64,000 nt of DNA from a virus, in the IMG/VR virus record IMGVR_UViG_3300042691_012890, positions 1 through 64,000 of that record. One strand, written 5' to 3'. The notes beneath the pieces were generated by a model. The model did not search any database and had not been told where the DNA came from. It saw only the letters and a list, made by a program, of their open reading frames with translations. Position 1 is the first letter of the stretch. The number at the start of each line of letters is the position of its first letter. Below are positions 45,673 through 61,180 of the stretch, piece by piece. A program made the position numbers and the translations under genes.

Positions 45673-45679
45673 TATTTAG
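45673..45679 (-). promoter_or_regulatory. Late-type promoter motif CTAAATA
   Basis: TACTAAATAGATAA about 31-37 bp before the ATG at 45642. It overlaps the last codons of the upstream rhamnose pathway gene, giving the head-protein operon its own late start. Confidence 0.5.
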
Positions 45680-46467
45680 TATAGATTAGGTTTCATTGTA
45701 CTCACAGCATTTACAAGAGCATCACGAACATCTGACATTGCGTCATATGCTGGAATGGTGCAAGTAGAACGACCTGCCGCCGTTGCAGCGCGGAATTCGT
45801 CTGGCGTAAACCACTGAGGCTGGATACCCATAATCTCAGCGAGTTCATGCATGTTCACAGAACCCTTGTTGACTAGGTTATAATACCCATCTGGAGCCTC
45901 ATCCAACATCAAATCGCAGGCTACATTGACCGCTTCATCAAGATCTGTCAAAGAATTTTGACCTGCATCGATCAATTTTGCGTTTTTGGCGTAGTTGTAG
46001 ACCTTGTATAGGTAGTTTTTTGGCTCAACCTTACCCGTAAATGGCATACGAATACGATAGACCTGAGCCTTATCGCCCAAGTATACGTCTGAAACGCCCT
46101 TTGCAACTGAATAGGTGCTGCCAAAGAAGTTTGGTGGGGCATCTACGGTTTGAATATCGCCTGTATAGATACAACCGCTTGAAAAATGCGACATTCTGAC
46201 GCCATTTTCCTCAGCAGCGGCATACAAAAGTCCTGGATAAATTGCGTTCCCGTAAACTGTATTCTGCTTATCCAATTCACAAGCATCCACGTTTGGAGTT
46301 CCAGTTACGCCAGCGCAATTTACCACCCAATCATAACGGTTTTTGTGTAAAGCACTGATTGCAGAATTGTGGGATGCCATTGTTACGACAAATCCACGCT
46401 CCACCAAATTGTCGAATACCTTTTTACCTGTCCAACCACGACCAACTACTAGAAAATGCATAATCAT
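45676..46467 (-). CDS. NAD(P)-dependent nucleotide-sugar reductase, NRS/ER-like
   Basis: 263 aa SDR protein: VVGRGWTGKKV Rossmann motif and STYSVAKG (Y119-x3-K123). FSSGCIYTGD, NFFGSTYSVAKG, YRIRMPFTGKVEPKNYLYKV and NSLTDLDEAVNVACDLM follow the layout of plant NRS/ER (UER1) and mimivirus enzymes, which carry out 3,5-epimerisation and 4-reduction of dTDP-4-keto-6-deoxyglucose in one protein. This would explain the absence of a separate RmlC. A simple RmlD or UDP-sugar reductase is the alternative. Confidence 0.7.
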   Translation of the reverse strand: MIMHFLVVGRGWTGKKVFDNLVERGFVVTMASHNSAISALHKNRYDWVVNCAGVTGTPNVDACELDKQNTVYGNAIYPGLLYAAAEENGVRMSHFSSGCIYTGDIQTVDAPPNFFGSTYSVAKGVSDVYLGDKAQVYRIRMPFTGKVEPKNYLYKVYNYAKNAKLIDAGQNSLTDLDEAVNVACDLMLDEAPDGYYNLVNKGSVNMHELAEIMGIQPQWFTPDEFRAATAAGRSTCTIPAYDAMSDVRDALVNAVSTMKPNLY

Positions 46468-46469
46468 AA

Positions 46470-47342
46470 TTAAACCCTCATTGTCAAAATTTTGTTTAGA
46501 TACTTACCATAATCCGACTTCTTATACTTATTCGCCGCATATTCAAGATCCCATGCAGAAATCCATTCATTACGATATGCAATTTCTTCAGGGCAAGCAA
46601 TCATCGTTCCAGTTCTACGCTGGACTGAACCGACGAACGTTGACGCCTCAGCCAATGATTCAAACGTACCTGTATCAATCCAAGCAATACCACGGTTTAG
46701 ATACTCAACGTTGACCTGATTCTGTTCTAGATACATTCGATTCAGATCAGTAATTTCCAACTCACCACGAGCAGATGGCTTGAGTTGTTTTGCATACTCA
46801 ACAACCTTGTTGTCATAGAAATACAATCCAGTAACGGCATAGTTACTTGGAGCAACTTCTGGCTTTTCAATAATGTCTACGGGGTCGCCATTCTCATCAA
46901 GTTTCAAAACCCCGAATCGTTCTGGATCATGTACATGATAGGCAAACAATGTACAGCCAGGATTACTCTGTGCGAAATTGAAACGATTGATTAGATCATT
47001 TCCATAAAAAATGTTATCGCCAAGAATCAAAGCAACGTCGCTCTTCCCAATCCACTTTTCAGCAATTAGAAAACACTCAGCAATACCATTAGGTTGTAAC
47101 TGAGTTTCGTAAGATATTTGTAAACCCCACTGATTTCCATTACCGATTAGATTCTCGAATGGTGCTCTATCAGCAGGTGAAGTGATAATCATAATATCAC
47201 GAATGCCAGCAAGCATCAGCGTCGACAATGGATAATATACCAGCGGCTTGTCATAAACTGGCAATAGTTGCTTGGATACAACTTTCGTGCATGGATAGAG
47301 ACGAGTTCCCAACCCACCACTCAATATAATTCCCTTTCTCAT
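46470..47342 (-). CDS. rfbA: Glucose-1-phosphate thymidylyltransferase
   Basis: 290 aa from MRKGIILSGG. Signature KGIILSGGLGTRLYPCTKVVSKQLLPVYDKPLVYYPL and LILGDNIFYG. It makes dTDP-glucose from dTTP and Glc-1-P. The start overlaps the RfbB stop (ATGA). Confidence 0.93.
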   Translation of the reverse strand: MRKGIILSGGLGTRLYPCTKVVSKQLLPVYDKPLVYYPLSTLMLAGIRDIMIITSPADRAPFENLIGNGNQWGLQISYETQLQPNGIAECFLIAEKWIGKSDVALILGDNIFYGNDLINRFNFAQSNPGCTLFAYHVHDPERFGVLKLDENGDPVDIIEKPEVAPSNYAVTGLYFYDNKVVEYAKQLKPSARGELEITDLNRMYLEQNQVNVEYLNRGIAWIDTGTFESLAEASTFVGSVQRRTGTMIACPEEIAYRNEWISAWDLEYAANKYKKSDYGKYLNKILTMRV

Positions 47343-48286
47343 AAGTACCACTCCACTGTCTTTTCAAGACCATGTATAATATTAGTTTTCGCTTTCCATC
47401 CAAGTTCATTGTAAATCTTTTCAGCATTCATAGCATAACGCATATCGTGACCCTTTCTGTCTGTCACGAAATTTAACCAATCAGTATAACGATTGACATC
47501 CTTACCCATAATCTCAAGAATCAATTTGATCATTTGAATGTTTGTCAATTCAACTCCACCACCGATATTGTATCGCTCGCCAGATTTGAAATTCTGACCG
47601 ATCGTCAACAAAGCCTCGCAGTGATCTTCGACAAACAACCAATCGCGAACGTTGATGCCCTGCCCATAAACAGGGATTGGTGTATTGTTTTTGATGTGGC
47701 GAATAATCGTTGGAATAAACTTTTCGTTGTGCTGACGAGGACCGTAGTTATTCGAACAATTAGTCACAACCGCGTCAATCTTATGTGTGTTTACATAAGC
47801 ACGAACCAAATGGTCGCTGGCTGCTTTGGTTGCTGAGTATGGATTGCGAGGATCATATGGAGTTGTTTCACTAAACTCAGGATCATTAGGACCAAGACTT
47901 CCATAGACCTCATCAGTCGAAACATGGACTAACTTGCCGCCATACTTGCGAATGCACTTTAGAATGTTGTGAGTGCCATTAATATTAGTGCTGAGGAAAT
48001 CATCGTCACCACGAATAGAATTGTCAACGTGAGACTCAGCAGCAAAATGAAACGTAATGTCTGGTTCATAGGTGTGATAGATCCCATCCAGTGAATCTAG
48101 ATTGCGAATGTCGACTTTCTTGACGGTAAGTCGCCAATCGTCGTAGTATCCGTTTAGATTTGATCCGTTAGCAGCGTATGACTGATTGTCAAGAACGACA
48201 ATCTCATCGCTAGGATATTTTTTCAGGTGAGAGATTACAAAATTAGAACCAATAAATCCCAAACCGCCAGTCACAAATGTCGTCAT
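47339..48286 (-). CDS. rfbB: dTDP-glucose 4,6-dehydratase
   Basis: 315 aa extended SDR. TGGLGFIGSNF at the N-terminus, STDEVYG (residues 123-129; D125, E126) and YSATK (Y150, K154) are the NAD-binding and catalytic motifs of RmlB. It yields dTDP-4-keto-6-deoxyglucose for the downstream epimerase/reductase. Inserted in the replication operon between the zincin and head genes. Confidence 0.93.
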   Translation of the reverse strand: MTTFVTGGLGFIGSNFVISHLKKYPSDEIVVLDNQSYAANGSNLNGYYDDWRLTVKKVDIRNLDSLDGIYHTYEPDITFHFAAESHVDNSIRGDDDFLSTNINGTHNILKCIRKYGGKLVHVSTDEVYGSLGPNDPEFSETTPYDPRNPYSATKAASDHLVRAYVNTHKIDAVVTNCSNNYGPRQHNEKFIPTIIRHIKNNTPIPVYGQGINVRDWLFVEDHCEALLTIGQNFKSGERYNIGGGVELTNIQMIKLILEIMGKDVNRYTDWLNFVTDRKGHDMRYAMNAEKIYNELGWKAKTNIIHGLEKTVEWYL

Positions 48287-54531: not shown

Positions 54532-54721
54532 TTTGTTTCATCCTCTCGTATGATTTAAATAGATTTTTATCTTTCATGTTTTGGACAATTCCATTCTTAT
54601 AATATTCACCACTTGTCATTGTCCATACATCCTTACCAACTTTTAAACTCCAACCATTGAACTCTTTAATATGAATTTCTTTTGAAACTAAGAATTCTTT
54701 TAATTCAGATAGACTATTCAT
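54458..54721 (-). CDS. Hypothetical protein, 87 aa
   Basis: MNSLSELKEFLVSKEIHIKEFNGWSLKVGKDVWTMTSGEYYKNG, then a basic tail that overlaps the next gene by 74 nt. AGGAG lies 8 nt upstream of the ATG, inside the end of the ROK gene. The overlap raises some doubt about the C-terminus. Confidence 0.55.
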   Translation of the reverse strand: MNSLSELKEFLVSKEIHIKEFNGWSLKVGKDVWTMTSGEYYKNGIVQNMKDKNLFKSYERMKQNVEHQSTKTRKWRGISCRSSRADR

Positions 54722-55472
54722 CTAAACAACTCCTAGCGTATATTGCAGAACCTATTACTCCTGCACTGTTTCCATATTTTGCTTTATAAATTTTACTCGG
54801 AGAAATTAAATACTTATGCCATTGATCCCAAGCGTCGCTTATTCCTCCACCAATTACAATATTATCTGGCCAAAAGCATTTATTGATTTCTTCTAGATAC
54901 AAATTAACTCTTTCAGCGTATTCTTCCCAAGTTAAATTCATCTTTTCTATCAAAAGTGCTGATGCAATTAGTTCGGCATTATCTATTCCGTTAGGTAATG
55001 CCATTCTTCCGAATTCAGTGTTTAACAATAGTGAATTATTGTGATAGATTGCAGTTCCTATCCCAGTTCCAAAAGTTAAAAATACCGTAACTCCTGGAAG
55101 ATTTTTAATAGCACCAAATTTTATTTCAGCCATCGCGGCAGCATCAGCATCATTTAACACTTCGCAGTTAACACCAAAATATTCTGTTGCTAACTGCTTG
55201 ATGTTTAATCCATACCATTCTTTACCAATATTAGGTGCAGTTTTCGTGATACCTTCTTTGACTATGCAAGGTATCCCGAAACCTATTACGTCATATTGAT
55301 CTGATATTTGTTCTTTTATGCTTTTAAACAAAACATCAGGATGTTCGTTTTTGGGCGTTTTAATTTTAAAGATCGTTTCACATTCACCAGTTGAAGTATC
55401 AACTAATCCTATTTTAGTGAATGTACCACCAACATCTACTCCAAGAACATTATTCAGTTGCTTCGCTTGCAT
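54714..55472 (-). CDS. ROK-family sugar kinase (polyphosphate-glucokinase-like)
   Basis: 252 aa. GVDVGGTFTKIGLVD (phosphate 1 loop), VLNDADAAAMAE (catalytic Asp) and VFLTFGTGIGTAIY (phosphate 2) are ROK/ASKHA motifs; the FGTGIGTA form is typical of polyphosphate glucokinases. The ROK CxCGxxGC zinc motif is absent, as in that subgroup. It could phosphorylate a sugar feeding the adjacent nucleotide-sugar and glycan genes. Confidence 0.8.
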   Translation of the reverse strand: MQAKQLNNVLGVDVGGTFTKIGLVDTSTGECETIFKIKTPKNEHPDVLFKSIKEQISDQYDVIGFGIPCIVKEGITKTAPNIGKEWYGLNIKQLATEYFGVNCEVLNDADAAAMAEIKFGAIKNLPGVTVFLTFGTGIGTAIYHNNSLLLNTEFGRMALPNGIDNAELIASALLIEKMNLTWEEYAERVNLYLEEINKCFWPDNIVIGGGISDAWDQWHKYLISPSKIYKAKYGNSAGVIGSAIYARSCLDE

Positions 55473-55656: not shown

Positions 55657-56332
55657 TCAATAATTCCTCACATTTATTCCAAAAACGTTCTTGCTGACCA
55701 GGTTGGAAAATTTGCCAGCAATGCCAAAACAAAGGTTTATCACCTTCTCCATAAGTTGTACCAATACCAAAATTAGGCATTCCATCAGCCAAAGACCAAT
55801 ATGGTGGTAGGTTTTGTGGTTCCCATGCCATTCTTAAAGGAGGAGCATCGTAACTTAATGGCATTAGAAGATGTACGTCTATATTATTCTCTCTAGCCAA
55901 ATAAGTCAACTCTTCTGCAACGTCGCCTCTAGGAGTTGGCTCAAATGATGGCTTACCGATTCTTGAGTACAAATCCATAGTGAATCCAACATTATGAGCG
56001 CCACAGAAAACATGCTGATTATTGTCAATATGATTGGTTCTTTGCGCGTCACCGATCAGTTTACCGTTATATACGTTTTCAAACATAAAGTCAATAGCAG
56101 AATCATCAACTGGAACGCAGTCAACGTCTAAAAATAATACTGCATCATGACCCATTTGCTCTAACATAGGCATCAATAGAGTCATAGTGGCGCCATGAGT
56201 CCCGCCAGTTATAACTTGATGAAAGGTAATGTTTGATTTATTGAATTTATCTACTACTGCTTTCTGTAGAGTAGTAGTCTTTTGATCAATATTTTGCATG
56301 TATACTGAAATGATACAAGGATTTCTGTTCAT
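55649..56332 (-). CDS. Glycosyltransferase-like protein (GT-A, DVD)
   Basis: 227 aa. VLFLDVDCVPVDDSAIDF contains a DxD motif preceded by hydrophobic strand, as in GT-A enzymes. GAHNVGFTMDLYSRIG and HCWQIFQPGQQERFW follow. No N-terminal anchor. Likely transfers a sugar in the surface/virion glycan pathway. Confidence 0.65.
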   Translation of the reverse strand: MNRNPCIISVYMQNIDQKTTTLQKAVVDKFNKSNITFHQVITGGTHGATMTLLMPMLEQMGHDAVLFLDVDCVPVDDSAIDFMFENVYNGKLIGDAQRTNHIDNNQHVFCGAHNVGFTMDLYSRIGKPSFEPTPRGDVAEELTYLARENNIDVHLLMPLSYDAPPLRMAWEPQNLPPYWSLADGMPNFGIGTTYGEGDKPLFWHCWQIFQPGQQERFWNKCEELLNG

Positions 56333-56787
56333 TAATTTGCCTCTCTATATTTTATTGGAAAGTCTGTGCATATACCAAAACATGATTTAATTTCTTGCTC
56401 TGGGAATTTTTCAGGCATAACTGCGATACTATTTTTTATTGGCTGCTTGCCTACATATGCCCAAATGTAGCCATTACTGGTTAGAGTAATCGTATCTGAT
56501 TCGTGCCAAAAGTAATTGTAGTTATACAAAGTATTTAGTTCTTGTAGTTCCACTACTGCATCAACATTTTTACAGTGAATCCATAATTGTTTGCTATGTT
56601 TTTGCAAAAAATCTACGGAGACTTCATTGATAGGATCATCATGACCTAGAAAAAATTTGCCATCTATAAACCATAAATCTATTTCAACATCAAAACCAAG
56701 ACTGACTGCCAATTCTATACTAGAAATTGAGTTTTCAGAAACAGGATCTGGTCCTTGAACATTTCCTCGATGTGATATTATTCTCAT
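56332..56787 (-). CDS. Short GDPD-like phosphodiesterase
   Basis: The first 55 residues contain all GDPD active-site motifs: ISHRGNV (H6, R7), SENS (E18), FDVEIDLW (E35, D37), LGHDDP (H49, D50). At 151 aa it is much shorter than typical GDPD (~240 aa), ending after what would be mid-barrel. It may be a minimal phosphodiesterase, or bind rather than cleave phosphodiester-linked groups such as glycerophosphate on glycans. Confidence 0.72.
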   Translation of the reverse strand: MRIISHRGNVQGPDPVSENSISSIELAVSLGFDVEIDLWFIDGKFFLGHDDPINEVSVDFLQKHSKQLWIHCKNVDAVVELQELNTLYNYNYFWHESDTITLTSNGYIWAYVGKQPIKNSIAVMPEKFPEQEIKSCFGICTDFPIKYREAN

Positions 56788-57443
56788 AGTTTTTTAGTTA
56801 CGAATGCAATACCCCAATCATCATTGTTTGTGCAGTGATAGTCTACGTTCCACATTTCTCTGTTGAGTGCTGCGCAAAACTCTCTTGGTCCTGGGTGATA
56901 ATTGGTGTCATGAAAAACAACTACACCATGATCTGACAATAGATTAGTATATTCCCAATCTCTAATAACTTGCATAATACTGTGCCAACCATCAATAAAC
57001 AGTAAATCTATAATTTCAACTCCGTGACTTTTCAAAACAGAAACATTGGTATTGTAATTAGAAGAATCATTATGAATGATGTGAACGTTGTTGCTGATAT
57101 CATTCAAATATGTTTTATCAATCACATCAATACCAAAGTATTTTGTCTTTTTGCGCTTCAATTCCAACATAATTGAACTAAAACTTTCACCTTCTTTAGT
57201 GCTGCCGCCATCTTTTTCTATTCTGTTAACACCTATTTCAAGAATAGCATCAGTTGATTTAACTCTAGAAGAAAATAGTTTTCTGAAAGCATCTAAATTG
57301 CAGTCAGAAATTTCTTTAGCAATTAAAGGACCTGAGTATATTGCGCTATCCTGATCCACGTGCACTTGACTATTAACGGTAATATCTTTGATTAGATCAT
57401 ATTTCCATTTTACATGTTTATTGTTTTCGTAATATGTGCTCAT
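56784..57443 (-). CDS. Class I SAM methyltransferase (Methyltransf_24-like)
   Basis: 219 aa. ILEIGVNRIEKDGGST (motif I region), YFGIDVID, IDLLFIDGWHSIMQVIRDWEYTNLLSDHGVVVFHDTNYHPGP. The IDG-H-x6-D and GG/HG-hDT patterns are those of class I methyltransferases acting on sugars in surface clusters (cephalosporin hydroxylase-like/Methyltransf_24). Confidence 0.75.
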   Translation of the reverse strand: MSTYYENNKHVKWKYDLIKDITVNSQVHVDQDSAIYSGPLIAKEISDCNLDAFRKLFSSRVKSTDAILEIGVNRIEKDGGSTKEGESFSSIMLELKRKKTKYFGIDVIDKTYLNDISNNVHIIHNDSSNYNTNVSVLKSHGVEIIDLLFIDGWHSIMQVIRDWEYTNLLSDHGVVVFHDTNYHPGPREFCAALNREMWNVDYHCTNNDDWGIAFVTKKL

Positions 57444-57461: not shown

Positions 57462-58700
57462 TTAAAATTCTAAAACCCACTCAGGCAAACTTCCACCGTC
57501 GGTCTTGTACCCCCACTTTTCAATAGCAACACGAAACTCTGGTCCTGGTGTCTTGTCAATAGCCTGACGCATAGCAAGAGCACCTGCTAGTGTACCACCT
57601 GGGTGTCCGTGAATGGCACCACCGCAGTTAGCAAGAAAATCTGTACCAAACTTCTCAGCAGTTGGATTTACAATTCCAGGATGCATACCGCAACTCAATG
57701 CTGGCAAAGTGTTGCGCTTGTGTAGCACTTCCATCGTATTTCGCAGTTCCTCAATATCATCGCTGAGATAACCACCCCACATTCCAGCATGGATTGTATC
57801 CACGCCACATAGTCCTGCGAGATCGCAGAGCACAGCCCAATCAATACCAAAAGGATTGCGCTTGTCAGTAAGAATCTTATCGCCACTCTTTTGATAGTGT
57901 ACAAACAAAGGCAAGTCTAGTTTGCGAACTGAGTTGTATACACCCAAGCCACTCCAGAAGTTGATGTGGATGCCATTACCACCGTTGGCTGCTACAAACT
58001 TAGCGCGATCCAAAATAGTGTGATGATCACCGTTGATACAGAAGCAGTAGATTACACCACGACCGCAATTGTTTACGATATTGCTGATTAGTTCAACTCT
58101 ATCTTCCAAACGGCAGAACGAGGGATTGGAAAGGATTTCATCTTCCTTGATAAAATCAACACCACCATCCAGTAGTTCTTTAACCATGTCTGCCAAAGTA
58201 GCAGGACTAATACCTGTCTTGGGTTTGACAATGCCGCCTGACAAAGGCTTGTCATAACGATTTACAAACTTTCTAATACCTGTGATACCACGCTTTGGTC
58301 CAAGGAAGTAGGCTTCTACATCTGGTGGGAATTCAATCTTCTTCAAGCGACAGGCTTTGAATACATCGATGTCCATCTGTCCGCCCATCAACTGGCACAT
58401 GAGATGGCTGATACCGTCGCCTTCCCAGTCTGAATTTACTTTGGGGAATCCAATCTGCACTACGCCAGAATGTTTACCAACCAATTCACTTTCATCATGA
58501 TAGATTACACAACTAGCAAGTTCAAACAGCGCATCACTTTCCCAACGGTTTCTGACTTTGGGATTACCCACACTCTGTCCGATAGCAAGGTTCCATGCGG
58601 CATCTCTAAGATCGCCAATTTCGCTATAGGTTTCAATGTAGTATGTTACTACAACACAACGATCTCGTTCTGCTGGAGTTAATTCTCTAAAAAACTTCAT
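57462..58700 (-). CDS. RuBisCO-like protein (form IV type)
   Basis: 412 aa from the ATG at 58700 (SD GGG). Compared by eye with RuBisCO large subunit: K159/K161 (VKPKTG) match K175/K177; the metal site is intact, with K185, D187, E188 (FIKEDE) at K201/D203/E204; H268 at H294, H304 at H327, S336 at S379, G360-G361 at G403-G404. Two catalytic residues differ: R295 is Tyr269, and the loop-6 K334 is Tyr311 (HAGMWGGY). Q42 stands at E60. It is therefore unlikely to fix CO2 and more likely an enolase, isomerase or decarboxylase on a related sugar phosphate. Flanked by a cupin, a methyltransferase and a nucleotidyltransferase. Confidence 0.9.
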   Translation of the reverse strand: MKFFRELTPAERDRCVVVTYYIETYSEIGDLRDAAWNLAIGQSVGNPKVRNRWESDALFELASCVIYHDESELVGKHSGVVQIGFPKVNSDWEGDGISHLMCQLMGGQMDIDVFKACRLKKIEFPPDVEAYFLGPKRGITGIRKFVNRYDKPLSGGIVKPKTGISPATLADMVKELLDGGVDFIKEDEILSNPSFCRLEDRVELISNIVNNCGRGVIYCFCINGDHHTILDRAKFVAANGGNGIHINFWSGLGVYNSVRKLDLPLFVHYQKSGDKILTDKRNPFGIDWAVLCDLAGLCGVDTIHAGMWGGYLSDDIEELRNTMEVLHKRNTLPALSCGMHPGIVNPTAEKFGTDFLANCGGAIHGHPGGTLAGALAMRQAIDKTPGPEFRVAIEKWGYKTDGGSLPEWVLEF

Positions 58701-59010
58701 ACTTATCACCCTTCACGCTAGGAGTTTTAACGCACAATACTTTACAATCTTCTAAAAATTCTGGATTGGCAATTTCATTTGGCTCTAACACAAAAACATC
58801 ACCAGATTCAATTACTTCTCCACAAATACGCATCTTACCTGACAGCAGCACATTATATTCAGTTGCAACTGCATGATAATGTTTTGGCCAAACTTCGCCT
58901 TTCAAATGAGTCAACACACCAACCTCAAATTCTGAGGTCTTTAATATGCTTGGTTCAAAATTTCCAATGAACCATCCACGCCAAAATTCATTAATGTTTC
59001 GCTTTATCAT
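58687..59010 (-). CDS. Cupin-domain protein, 107 aa
   Basis: GEVWPKHYHAVATEYNVLLSGKMRICGEVIESGDVFVLEPNEIANPEFLED shows the two cupin motifs (H-x-H..E, G..H-like). The end of the gene overlaps the RuBisCO-like start. It could be a sugar isomerase/epimerase of the cluster or a metal-binding partner. Confidence 0.75.
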   Translation of the reverse strand: MIKRNINEFWRGWFIGNFEPSILKTSEFEVGVLTHLKGEVWPKHYHAVATEYNVLLSGKMRICGEVIESGDVFVLEPNEIANPEFLEDCKVLCVKTPSVKGDKYEVF

Positions 59011-59716
59011 ATCTTAAAAATCTATCCAAGTCAACTGGAACACCAACTGCATGATGTTGTTCGTTTGGTATATGATGAATCCCAACTTTTAAGCCACGCT
59101 TAATCATATAATTGTATGAAGGAGCGATATAGAATTCGCCGTTAGGTGCTCTATCTTGAGCGACAATCATATCCCTTGCACTTTCGACGAAGTATTTACC
59201 CTTCCTCCAATAATGAATACCATTAAGGCTGATATTACTTATAACTTCTTTTTCACGAATCTCGCAAACATAACCATTACTATCTAGTTTAGCGTAACTA
59301 TTTTTATCAGTATCTGAGTAATATGTTACAACTAGCCCATCATAAATTTCGCAGCGAGCATTGTGCAAAAATTGAAAAGAATTCCATTCCATTATTTGAT
59401 CGCAGTTAGCAACAATAAGTTCTTCATCATTGTTGATGTAATCTTCAAACAAAAGAGCAGAAATGGCTGGTCCCTCAGTCACATAATCTATTGCAATTAT
59501 AACGCAGCCAGGTTTAGTTGATTTTAATACCTTTTCTATTTCATGCTGATACTCGTCTTTACGAATCAAAAAAAAGTAATTACATTGAGGTATGCCAAGA
59601 GAATTAATTGCTCTTACAACCATCGGAGTCCCATTAACATCTATCAGCGGCTTTGGTGTTGAGTATTCTTTTTGGAATCTAACGCCCCTGCCAGCCATTG
59701 GAATTATAACATTCAT
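58991..59716 (-). CDS. Sugar-phosphate nucleotidyltransferase
   Basis: 241 aa. NVIIPMAGRGVRFQKEYSTPKPLIDVNGTPMVVRAINSL is the NTP-transferase signature (GxGxR..PKP). EELIVANCDQIMEW gives the metal Asp. C-terminal YDGLVVTYYSDTDKNSYAKLDSNGYV is as in GDP/UDP-sugar pyrophosphorylases. It probably activates the product of the cluster; base and sugar specificity not evident. Confidence 0.85.
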   Translation of the reverse strand: MNVIIPMAGRGVRFQKEYSTPKPLIDVNGTPMVVRAINSLGIPQCNYFFLIRKDEYQHEIEKVLKSTKPGCVIIAIDYVTEGPAISALLFEDYINNDEELIVANCDQIMEWNSFQFLHNARCEIYDGLVVTYYSDTDKNSYAKLDSNGYVCEIREKEVISNISLNGIHYWRKGKYFVESARDMIVAQDRAPNGEFYIAPSYNYMIKRGLKVGIHHIPNEQHHAVGVPVDLDRFLRYDKAKH

Positions 59717-59720
59717 GATA

Positions 59721-60467
59721 TTAATTAAATCTTGTTAGAAGACCTGCTTTAAATACTGGAAAATCTCTAGAATGATCTTCTATTTGAATTCCATGTTTTG
59801 CAAAAACTTCTTGTGCTATTTTCCAATCTTCGATAATTTTTTGATGCGCCTCGTGAACCTTCTCAGTTGTAACGCGCATTACAGTCATAACTACCCAATT
59901 GTATAGCCAAAAATTTGTTCTGCCGTTCATTTCTTGATTTTTATGGAACCAAACATCACCAAAATGCTGCACTAGTTCTTCAGGGATAGGCTTATAATTA
60001 TTTTTATGCACAAACATACAGCAGCCATATCCATCTATAGTCTCGTGGCAGGGAACCATTTCAAGTTTTTGAATTAGTTCTATATTTTCTTCCATTCTAT
60101 TAAAAAATGCTGGATGTGGGTAGATCATACCCACTGACTCTCTGGGAAATTGTTCAGATTTATATGCGTCAGCCAAAGAACTAAAAATTGCAGGATCAAA
60201 AATAACATCGTCATTTAACAAACAAATTAATTCAAACTTAGAATTTTCTACTCCAACATTCAAACTTTTATTGAAAAATAAATTCTTACCGAAATCTAGA
60301 ATTTTAACTTTTTCATTTGTTAAATTCTCATCTGTCGGTCTATCTTTAGAATTGTTATCAATAATGATTATTTCGCCGACTGCATCGTTACCGACCATAA
60401 ACTTCAACATCTGAAGAAAATAGTCATTAGCCATCCACATTGTTGGAACTATCACAGAAAATTTCAT
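59721..60467 (-). CDS. Glycosyltransferase family 2
   Basis: Start MKFSVIVPTMW at 60467 (coupled to the upstream stop). The GT2 fold is shown by FSVIVPTM, IIIIDNNSKDRPTD and ELICLLNDDVIFDP (the DDxxF-type metal motif). 248 aa, no membrane anchor. Confidence 0.82.
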   Translation of the reverse strand: MKFSVIVPTMWMANDYFLQMLKFMVGNDAVGEIIIIDNNSKDRPTDENLTNEKVKILDFGKNLFFNKSLNVGVENSKFELICLLNDDVIFDPAIFSSLADAYKSEQFPRESVGMIYPHPAFFNRMEENIELIQKLEMVPCHETIDGYGCCMFVHKNNYKPIPEELVQHFGDVWFHKNQEMNGRTNFWLYNWVVMTVMRVTTEKVHEAHQKIIEDWKIAQEVFAKHGIQIEDHSRDFPVFKAGLLTRFN

Positions 60468-61180
60468 CATTCCCTCCAAGGTAACTTATCATTATACATT
60501 TTATTCATCTTGGCATTTCCTTCCAAGAAAAATTCTTTGTTTACAGATCCCTCATTTCCGCCCAATCTATAGCACATGGTGTACTTTTTACTGCATTCAA
60601 ATTTGTTAAAGTAATTCATAAGAGTATAGAAAAACTTTCTATCTGCTCCCCATTTTCCATACCAAGAATGTCCAACTTGAACTGCGACTTCAGTTTTTAC
60701 TGCAAAACATGAGGTATCTATGTGATGAACTCTGTGATCAAACCAAGTTGGCCACTTGCCTAAATTTTCGCAATTATCTTCACAAATAAAATTCTCATCT
60801 TTATCGTAAATTTTGCGAAGGCTATATGCCCAAGAAAGATTATTTTTATCTACTAATTCTACTAGGCTCTCAACATGATTAGGTTCTATCCAGTTATCTT
60901 GGTCTAGATAAATGATCAAATCGGCATTTACAATGAAAGAACAAGCAGCATATACTCGATGACCATACCAGCCTTTGCCGACGTTATCTTCTAACTGAAC
61001 AGTTTTAATTGTTCGCTTGCCTGCTGCATCATAAAGCATCGGATGAATTTTATCATAGTGTTCTTGTCCATCCAAAAACACGTAATGAGTTAGATTTTCA
61101 TATGTTTGTTCTTGTACGCTAGACAAACACTTTTTAAGATCAGGCGATCCTATTGTTGGAGTAACTACTGCAACTTTCAT
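60467..61180 (-). CDS. Glycosyltransferase family 2
   Basis: 237 aa. VAVVTPTIGSPDLKKCLSSVQEQTYENLTHYVFLDG and LIIYLDQDNWIEPNHVESLV are GT2 motifs. Distinct from the next GT2 in the operon. WYGKWGADRKFFYTLMNYFNK could contact the acceptor. Confidence 0.82.
   Translation of the reverse strand: MKVAVVTPTIGSPDLKKCLSSVQEQTYENLTHYVFLDGQEHYDKIHPMLYDAAGKRTIKTVQLEDNVGKGWYGHRVYAACSFIVNADLIIYLDQDNWIEPNHVESLVELVDKNNLSWAYSLRKIYDKDENFICEDNCENLGKWPTWFDHRVHHIDTSCFAVKTEVAVQVGHSWYGKWGADRKFFYTLMNYFNKFECSKKYTMCYRLGGNEGSVNKEFFLEGNAKMNKMYNDKLPWRE

Follow-up and report, generated by a model that had tools for sequence, protein, structure and literature searches.

A viral and cellular clade of RuBisCO-like proteins linked to a portable nucleotidyltransferase, cupin and phosphodiesterase module

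We describe a family of RuBisCO-like proteins (RLPs), carried by viruses and by a scattering of bacteria and archaea, whose genes form part of a portable module with a nucleotidyltransferase (NTase), a small cupin, and a GDPD-like phosphodiesterase. Judged by its sequences, the family is a separate form IV-type clade that lies outside forms I-III, MtnW, OiaX, Photo, and NonPhoto. On balance, and with limited confidence, we favour a reading in which the RLP is a ketose-phosphate-enolising enzyme, most likely an isomerase, whose product feeds the NTase of the module and, through it, glycan building. RuBisCO-like proteins as a kind are already known; what is new here is the NTase/cupin/GDPD context of this clade, together with a testable function for it.

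Results

A RuBisCO-superfamily gene in a T4-like virus genome

The window analysed here covers the opening 64 kb of a virus record in IMG/VR that is 88.6 kb long (IMGVR_UViG_3300042691_012890). Its genome is T4-like, and T4-type genes for a UvsX-like recombinase, a DNA polymerase, and a DnaB-like helicase lie nearby in the window. On the minus strand, positions 57462-58700 hold an intact ORF that starts with an ATG at 58700 and encodes 412 aa (an in-frame GTG at 58709 would give a 415-aa alternative); translation of the plus strand over the same interval is riddled with stops. An earlier reading of the window from its letters alone (hereafter, the sequence-only reading) had called this ORF RuBisCO-like and proposed a search with the PF00016 and PF02788 models. 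The call was borne out: the product matches PF00016 at 143.5 bits (E = 1.1e-41, against a curated cut-off of 30.1), PF02788 only weakly, and RuBisCO structures by sequence search. An AF2 model built from the family alignment (pLDDT 92, pTM 0.91) retrieves form III RuBisCO in Foldseek (E 3e-33, TM 0.85, 27% identity). The gene is real, and its product belongs to the RuBisCO superfamily; we annotate it as an RLP from these matches and from the family residue signature described below.

The metal site is kept and carboxylase residues are replaced

For the active site, we aligned 62 members of the RLP family with forms I, II, and III, OiaX, and other RLPs. K185, D187, and E188 (412-aa numbering), which correspond to the K201/D203/E204 metal site, are invariant in 62/62 members, as are the KPK motif (K175, K177), S379, G381, and G403; G404 is kept in 61/62 and H327 in 57/62. 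Invariance of the metal site, K175, K177, S379, G381, and G403 would point to selection for catalysis. The loop-6 lysine, K334, is Tyr in every member (62/62). Up to this point the alignment agrees with the sequence-only reading, which had listed the Lys-x-Asp-Glu site, KPK, the phosphate-loop glycines, and the loop-6 Tyr. That reading had also placed a Tyr at the R295 position and counted both His residues as kept, claims that trace back to a register slip in the HYQKSGD motif: the R295 position is Lys in 57/62 members, with the Tyr of the motif sitting two residues before it, and H294 is replaced by Gln in 62/62, the His left in the motif being the H292 equivalent (54/62). Three replacements absent from that reading, of E60 by Gly, T65 by Asn, and N123 by Gly, each occur in 62/62 members.

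The full form I-III catalytic set (16 residues, E60 to G404) is not present in the family, which instead has an invariant clade signature: G-Q-S-x-G-N-P at E60/T65, GG at N123, QK at H294/R295, and GGY at K334. This signature is usable as a screen for clade members. The invariant K334Y, N123G, E60G, T65N, and H294Q replacements argue against RuBisCO chemistry; as far as residues can tell, the RLP is not a carboxylase, and it nonetheless retains the carbamylated-Lys/Asp/Glu Mg2+ site and the phosphate-loop glycines. Viewed through the established RuBisCO mechanism, a kept metal/enolisation site combined with a lost CO2-handling site suggests enolisation chemistry without carboxylation. Because R295K and H294Q change the phosphate site, the size of the substrate is not readable from the sequence.

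The family branches outside the named RuBisCO and RLP groups

We placed the family in a maximum-likelihood tree with forms I, II, III, and II/III, OiaX, Photo (1tel, 2qyg), NonPhoto (3nwr), MtnW (2oek, 4nas), and the 3qfw type as references, the PDB rows being the aligned parts of the sequences only. All 21 sampled members form one clade on a long stem, with UFboot/SH-aLRT support of 100/100, outside every named reference group, while forms I, II, and III unite at 100/98; the midpoint root serves for drawing only and does not set the deeper branching order. A larger tree built without MtnW gives the clade the same placement, and the family does not fall inside the form I/II/III clade. Its scores against curated models lie far below the respective cut-offs: 188.6 bits against 497.45 for the form III equivalog TIGR03326, 110 and 146.6 against 513.6 and 409 for the MtnW models TIGR03332 and NF007095, and 147.5 against 700 for the OiaX model NF042437. 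In the broad sense of form IV or RLP, namely a RuBisCO fold with the carboxylase residues lost, the family does belong. The form IV-type assignment made in the sequence-only reading, together with the tree of forms I-IV that it had called for, is thereby upheld. Its two membership models, OiaX and MtnW, are not, since the NCBIfam cut-offs of both are missed several-fold and the clade branches elsewhere. That reading had also named two observations that would count against it, a place inside a true form I-III carboxylase clade with the loop-6 Lys restored by better alignment, and a lack of the neighbouring sugar genes in all close relatives. Neither was seen: the loop-6 position is still Tyr, and relatives do have sugar genes (see below). 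Two more divergent RLPs (L179, 2370-3755, and L180), whose source genomes were drawn in our Legionella and Nanoarchaeia phylum samples, likewise stand apart from the named groups and have long branches.

Form III RuBisCO (Thermococcus kodakarensis, Pyrococcus horikoshii; TIGR03326) has the fold, the carbamylated Lys/Asp/Glu site, KPK, and the phosphate-loop glycines in common with the family, but the two are only 27-28% identical, and the family has E60, T65, N123, H294, R295, and K334 replaced and is linked to an NTase. The 2,3-diketo-5-methylthiopentyl-1-P enolase MtnW/YkrW (2oej, 4nas) likewise has the RLP fold and metal site. We take the catalytic Lys of MtnW to sit at the N123 position; the family has Gly there, in addition to its separate clade and the failed NCBIfam cut-offs. 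OiaX, the 3-oxo-isoapionate-4-P decarboxylase, has in common with the family the RLP fold, K175, K201/D203/E204, and Gly at the N123 position; unlike the family, it keeps H294, R295, and K334 and has lost K177, and it is encoded in a catabolic operon alongside a four-carbon acid sugar kinase. Related RLPs resemble OiaX, and differ from the family, in keeping K334 and H294 and lacking K177.

The clade may overlap with homologues from the GOS survey, where 65 RuBisCO homologues fell outside the known groups (PMC1821046), and with the 'IV-GOS' subgroup listed in a review (PMC10173188). As the relevant parts of these sources describe them, the IV-GOS homologues are, like our family, marine, apart from the known forms, and altered at N123 and other active-site residues, with no viral origin, operon, or function given in those parts; the comparison is by description only.

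A module of NTase, cupin, RLP, and GDPD

On the minus strand of the window, the genes run in the order NTase (58991-59716), cupin (58687-59010), RLP (57462-58700), methyltransferase (56784-57443), and GDPD-like protein (56332-56787), with overlaps of 20 nt between NTase and cupin, 14 nt between cupin and RLP, and 4 nt between methyltransferase and GDPD. The 241-aa NTase is of the sugar-phosphate type and belongs to the NTP_transf_3/NTP_transferase superfamily (PF12804, phrog_3980; nearest PDB entry 4evw). The 107-aa cupin matches phrog_24762 and, weakly, PF12973; it keeps the HxH...E pattern and has invariant motifs of its own (GW..G.F and PS...DK). A sequence search of the cupin against the PDB gave nothing significant, and its AF2 model (pLDDT 94.8) lies nearest to a cupin phosphomannose isomerase at TM 0.65; we rejected naming a function from the fold, as the matches are generic cupins and this TM is too weak. 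The compact 151-aa GDPD-like protein (phrog_34507, with a weak match to the GDPD 1v8e) keeps H6-R7-G8, E35-x-D37, H49, and K73, and with them the GDPD histidines and acidic pair; the cellular GDPD homologues found in modules include a PF03009 member.

We counted partner genes around 64 representative RLP loci (<95% identity) using simple longest-ORF calling, which missed the NTase in L094 and the cupin, NTase, and GDPD in the Azospirillum locus L097, so that all partner counts are lower bounds. By ORF calling, the NTase is present in at least 59/64 loci, rising to 61/64 with L094 and L097 added from the ORF listing and tblastn; in the three loci without it (L028, L087, L102), the RLP is no more than about 1.2 kb away from the end of its contig. 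The GDPD accompanies the RLP in at least 45/64 loci, on the RLP strand in all of them, and the cupin in at least 39/64, always on the RLP strand and adjacent to the RLP in 37. One RLP virus (L053, 3327-4925) has the NTase domains tandemly duplicated in a single 532-aa protein.

The sequence-only reading had set the RLP within a phage cluster of sugar genes, and the neighbours it described are indeed there in the window. The link to sugar and nucleotidyl genes stands, in that NTase, cupin, and GDPD are conserved, but the remaining genes it named are not part of the core. The SAM methyltransferase (Methyltransf_24; PF13578, E = 2e-8) is frequent, in 14/64 loci, without being core. The flanking ROK-family, polyphosphate-glucokinase-like kinase (54714-55472, minus strand; PF00480, NF045942 below cut-off) is found in 1/64 loci, and the two flanking GT2 glycosyltransferases (59721-60479 and 60467-61180, both on the minus strand and both PF00535) in 1/64 and 2/64. 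Along with a 2OG oxygenase (2/64), the ROK and GT2 genes were rejected as core because they are near-private to the window virus; RmlB-type epimerases, at 19/64 loci, were set aside because their positions are scattered. Nor is the system confined to one phage cluster, since cellular copies exist. The window virus has a second sugar-nucleotide cluster at 45676-48286, where RmlD-, RmlA-, and RmlB-like genes lie between the helicase and DUF6267 genes, with no RmlC seen.

Several other neighbours recur outside the window. A family whose proteins begin with an SGxxR motif (WavE/DUF7796-like, 220-260 aa) occurs at 25/64 RLP loci (e.g., L008, 8232-8972) and near 52/72 of the cupin/RpiB modules described below, and by a crude motif count is enriched near modules (28/566 nearby ORFs against 2/170 distant ones); it is a candidate for the transferase. 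LicD was rejected as a general transferase partner, at 1/20 genomes or records and in Legionella only. In Legionella nautarum, the sole LicD gene is divergent to the RLP-NTase pair (L099, 6624-7475; also L100, L101), and these Legionella modules have no cupin or GDPD nearby. In Azospirillum oleiclasticum (L097, 3942-9568), CysD- and CysN/C-like sulfate-activation genes come directly after GDPD-RLP-cupin-NTase, which suggests a sulfated product; in a viral locus (L043, 11650-12408), a protein with APS-kinase and weak cytidylyltransferase domains lies directly behind the RLP module.

Distribution across viruses, bacteria, and archaea

About 262 IMG/VR loci encode relatives of the RLP, of which 80 were kept (55-100% identity); one of the relatives (L046) sits on a 518-kb contig. 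A tblastn search with the RLP matched none of 50,697 GenBank phage records, a set from which the records nearest to the window genome are possibly excluded, and the RLP thus has no isolate there. A pattern scan of 84,980 GTDB species genomes returned 21 loci or genomes with the family, including SAR11 single cells (two groups), Legionella nautarum, drozanskii, and maceachernii, Azospirillum oleiclasticum, a Verrucomicrobiia MAG, an Elusimicrobia MAG, and DPANN archaea; some of the carriers are small MAG contigs that could be phage. Among 289 sampled alphaproteobacterial genomes, the family was found only in the SAR11 query genome (575 bits), the next best matches, at 160 bits, being other RuBisCOs and RLPs.

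Whole or partial modules occur in Azospirillum, Elusimicrobia, Verrucomicrobia, SAR11, Legionella, and a nanoarchaeon, with the full GDPD-RLP-cupin-NTase set in Azospirillum and Elusimicrobia and the cupin missing from SAR11 and Legionella. The NTase-cupin-RLP-GDPD module is portable and is carried by cells as well as viruses. A 3.3-kb Crocinitomicaceae MAG contig (L082) carries NTase-cupin-RLP-GDPD, with an RLP 67% identical to that of the window, and may be of phage origin, binned with the MAG.

Exchange with an RpiB gene block in cyanophages

Isolated cyanophages have no RLP; GDPD and NTase are present, and Bellamy and SynMITS9220M01 have the cupin too. The NTase of Bellamy is fused to RpiB (ribose-5-phosphate isomerase B; PF02502, E = 4e-32), that of S-SKS1 to DHBP synthase (PF00926, E = 5e-65), and that of S-CAM9 to a HAD phosphatase. 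Scanning IMG/VR with the Bellamy cupin yielded 72 loci, mostly with NTase-RpiB, cupin, and GDPD following HAD and PfkB-like genes (the PfkB-like match is below the Pfam cut-off). None of these 72 loci has the RLP, and none of the RLP loci has RpiB, RibB, PfkB-like, or KdsC-like genes. Across whole records, many of which are fragments, none of 28 RLP viruses has RpiB and none of 30 RpiB-type viruses has RuBisCO. One cupin family alignment is common to RLP-type and RpiB-type modules; the cyanophage cupin is 38-46% identical to that of the window, the NTase has a median identity of 34%, and the GDPD is homologous, whereas RpiB fused to the NTase, with PfkB-like and HAD genes, stands in the place of the RLP.

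The arrangement HAD - PfkB-like - NTase/RpiB - cupin - GDPD (L205-L275; L201, 5489-6963) is widespread in cyanophages and apparently unnamed. The fusion of NTase with DHBP synthase (RibB) is found in S-SKS1 (L204, 7067-8494) and on ten viral contigs (L277-L286), with no adjacent cupin or GDPD.

In a tree of the NTases, RLP-linked forms interleave with those fused to RpiB, RibB, and HAD: the RpiB-fused forms group with the RLP-linked NTase of the nanoarchaeon (99/99), and the HAD-fused forms with an RLP-linked HAD-NTase (97/89), a fusion that a few RLP loci themselves carry. This nesting, the contents of the modules, and the mutual exclusion together indicate a single NTase/cupin/GDPD backbone served either by the RLP or by RpiB with kinase- and phosphatase-like genes. 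The exchange is that of a gene block and not strictly of one enzyme; as kinase- and phosphatase-like genes are present in RpiB modules and missing from RLP modules, RpiB may supply a different step. A GDP/ADP-heptose-like pathway (isomerase, kinase, HAD phosphatase, and NTase) does not describe the RLP modules, because these have neither a PfkB-like kinase nor a KdsC-like HAD (0 matches). In the open-access literature, we found nothing on the clade, its signature, the NTase/cupin/GDPD module, or the exchange with RpiB, and no RLP with a nucleotidyltransferase or in SAR11 O-antigen loci, which is weak evidence given that subscription journals and preprints lie outside that body of work.

Discussion

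In the scheme that we propose, the RLP would turn a pentulose-type phosphate into an isomer, and the NTase would activate this isomer to a building block linked to an NDP, perhaps CDP. The cupin and GDPD would work either on that intermediate or on the resulting phosphodiester, and glycosyl- or phospho-transferases would attach the unit to a glycan of the surface or the virion, a destination suggested by the neighbouring genes. Ribulose 5-phosphate is the substrate of both RpiB and DHBP synthase, which use enediol chemistry. Considering this chemistry and, by analogy, the isomerase precedent of the R. rubrum RLP, enolisation of a pentulose-type phosphate would be the most economical reading. 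The precedent is a 5-methylthioribulose-1-P isomerase that works with a cupin (PMC4958253). The Rhodospirillum rubrum RLP and its cupin MTXu-5P sulfurylase may be analogous to the RLP of the window in the presence of a small cupin nearby and in non-carboxylating ketose-phosphate chemistry; unlike that pair, which we compare by description only, the module has NTase and GDPD as partners, and we found no methionine-salvage genes with it. As to the product, the sole LicD gene beside RLP-NTase in Legionella nautarum, where alone LicD was seen, and the phosphodiesterase of the module hint at a CDP-alcohol type. We entertain more tentatively, and would not be surprised to see fail, the broader idea that an RLP lineage borne mainly by viruses serves biosynthesis in place of carbon fixation or catabolism: as an enolising isomerase, it would replace RpiB, along with the accompanying kinase and phosphatase, in a mobile module for an unusual nucleotide-activated pentose or related glycan unit, a module common to phages and to hosts as distant as SAR11, Legionella, and DPANN archaea.

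The main alternative is that the RLP, as OiaX or DHBP synthase does, breaks a C-C bond (by decarboxylation or by oxidative or hydrolytic cleavage), the NTase then activating a tetrose-type phosphate. DHBP synthase removes formate from ribulose 5-phosphate, and members of the NTase family are fused to it in S-SKS1-type cyanophages and at 10 more loci; OiaX, annotated on plasmids, is itself a decarboxylase of the RuBisCO superfamily. We nevertheless consider C-C cleavage unlikely, given that the K177, H294, and K334 patterns are unlike those of OiaX, that the clade is separate and scores 147.5 against the OiaX cut-off of 700, and that the exchange partner with cupin and GDPD in common is RpiB and not RibB. 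A different destination, hypermodification of the phage's own DNA in place of a surface or virion glycan, would suit the T4-like genome of the window, since T4-like viruses can glycosylate their own DNA. We rate this destination as quite improbable, for the module is also chromosomal in SAR11, Azospirillum, Legionella, Elusimicrobia, and archaea, with a WavE LPS-type gene close to one of the SAR11 copies, and we found no DNA-modification gene tied to it.

Two further readings take their cue from relatives with established roles. The known pairing of RLP and cupin in R. rubrum (PMC4958253) raises the thought of a methionine-salvage enzyme that has moved into phages, the RLP being an MtnW enolase or MTRu-1-P isomerase and the cupin taking the methylsulfurylase step in the MTA-isoprenoid shunt. 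Among the Pfam-scanned neighbours, though, no homologues of MTA phosphorylase, MtnA, or MtnB were named; the clade stands apart from MtnW (in a tree without the R. rubrum DeepYkr sequence), the MtnW models score 110-147 against cut-offs of 409-514, and the same cupin family lies beside NTase-RpiB where there is no RLP, so that we rate salvage as very improbable. A viral RuBisCO carboxylase boosting host CO2 fixation as an auxiliary metabolic gene (AMG) is what the top fold and profile matches, to form III RuBisCOs, would invite, and viral 'rbcL' genes have been read as carbon-fixation AMGs (PMC8506154, PMC12607003, PMC12615777), the protein in one of these reports clustering with 'RbcL-like' proteins. 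To this we give practically no credence: K334Y, N123G, E60G, T65N, and H294Q are found in 62/62 members and R295 is replaced, the RLP lies outside the I-III clade and scores 188.6 against 497 for the form III equivalog, and the surrounding genes are of the nucleotidyl/glycan type.

For the isomerase that we favour, the exchange with RpiB provides a concrete, assayable guess at the substrate, namely a pentulose phosphate. To our knowledge, the RLPs with a known job serve in sulfur salvage or sugar breakdown; an RLP tied to an NTase would, if true, place a relative of RuBisCO in an anabolic role. The clade described here also bears on current work in which viral 'rbcL' genes from soils, landfills, and lakes are tallied among those for carbon fixation (PMC12615777, PMC12607003, PMC8506154). 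Present at about 262 IMG/VR loci, the clade is recognised as RuBisCO by the Pfam model yet is without the residues for CO2 fixation.
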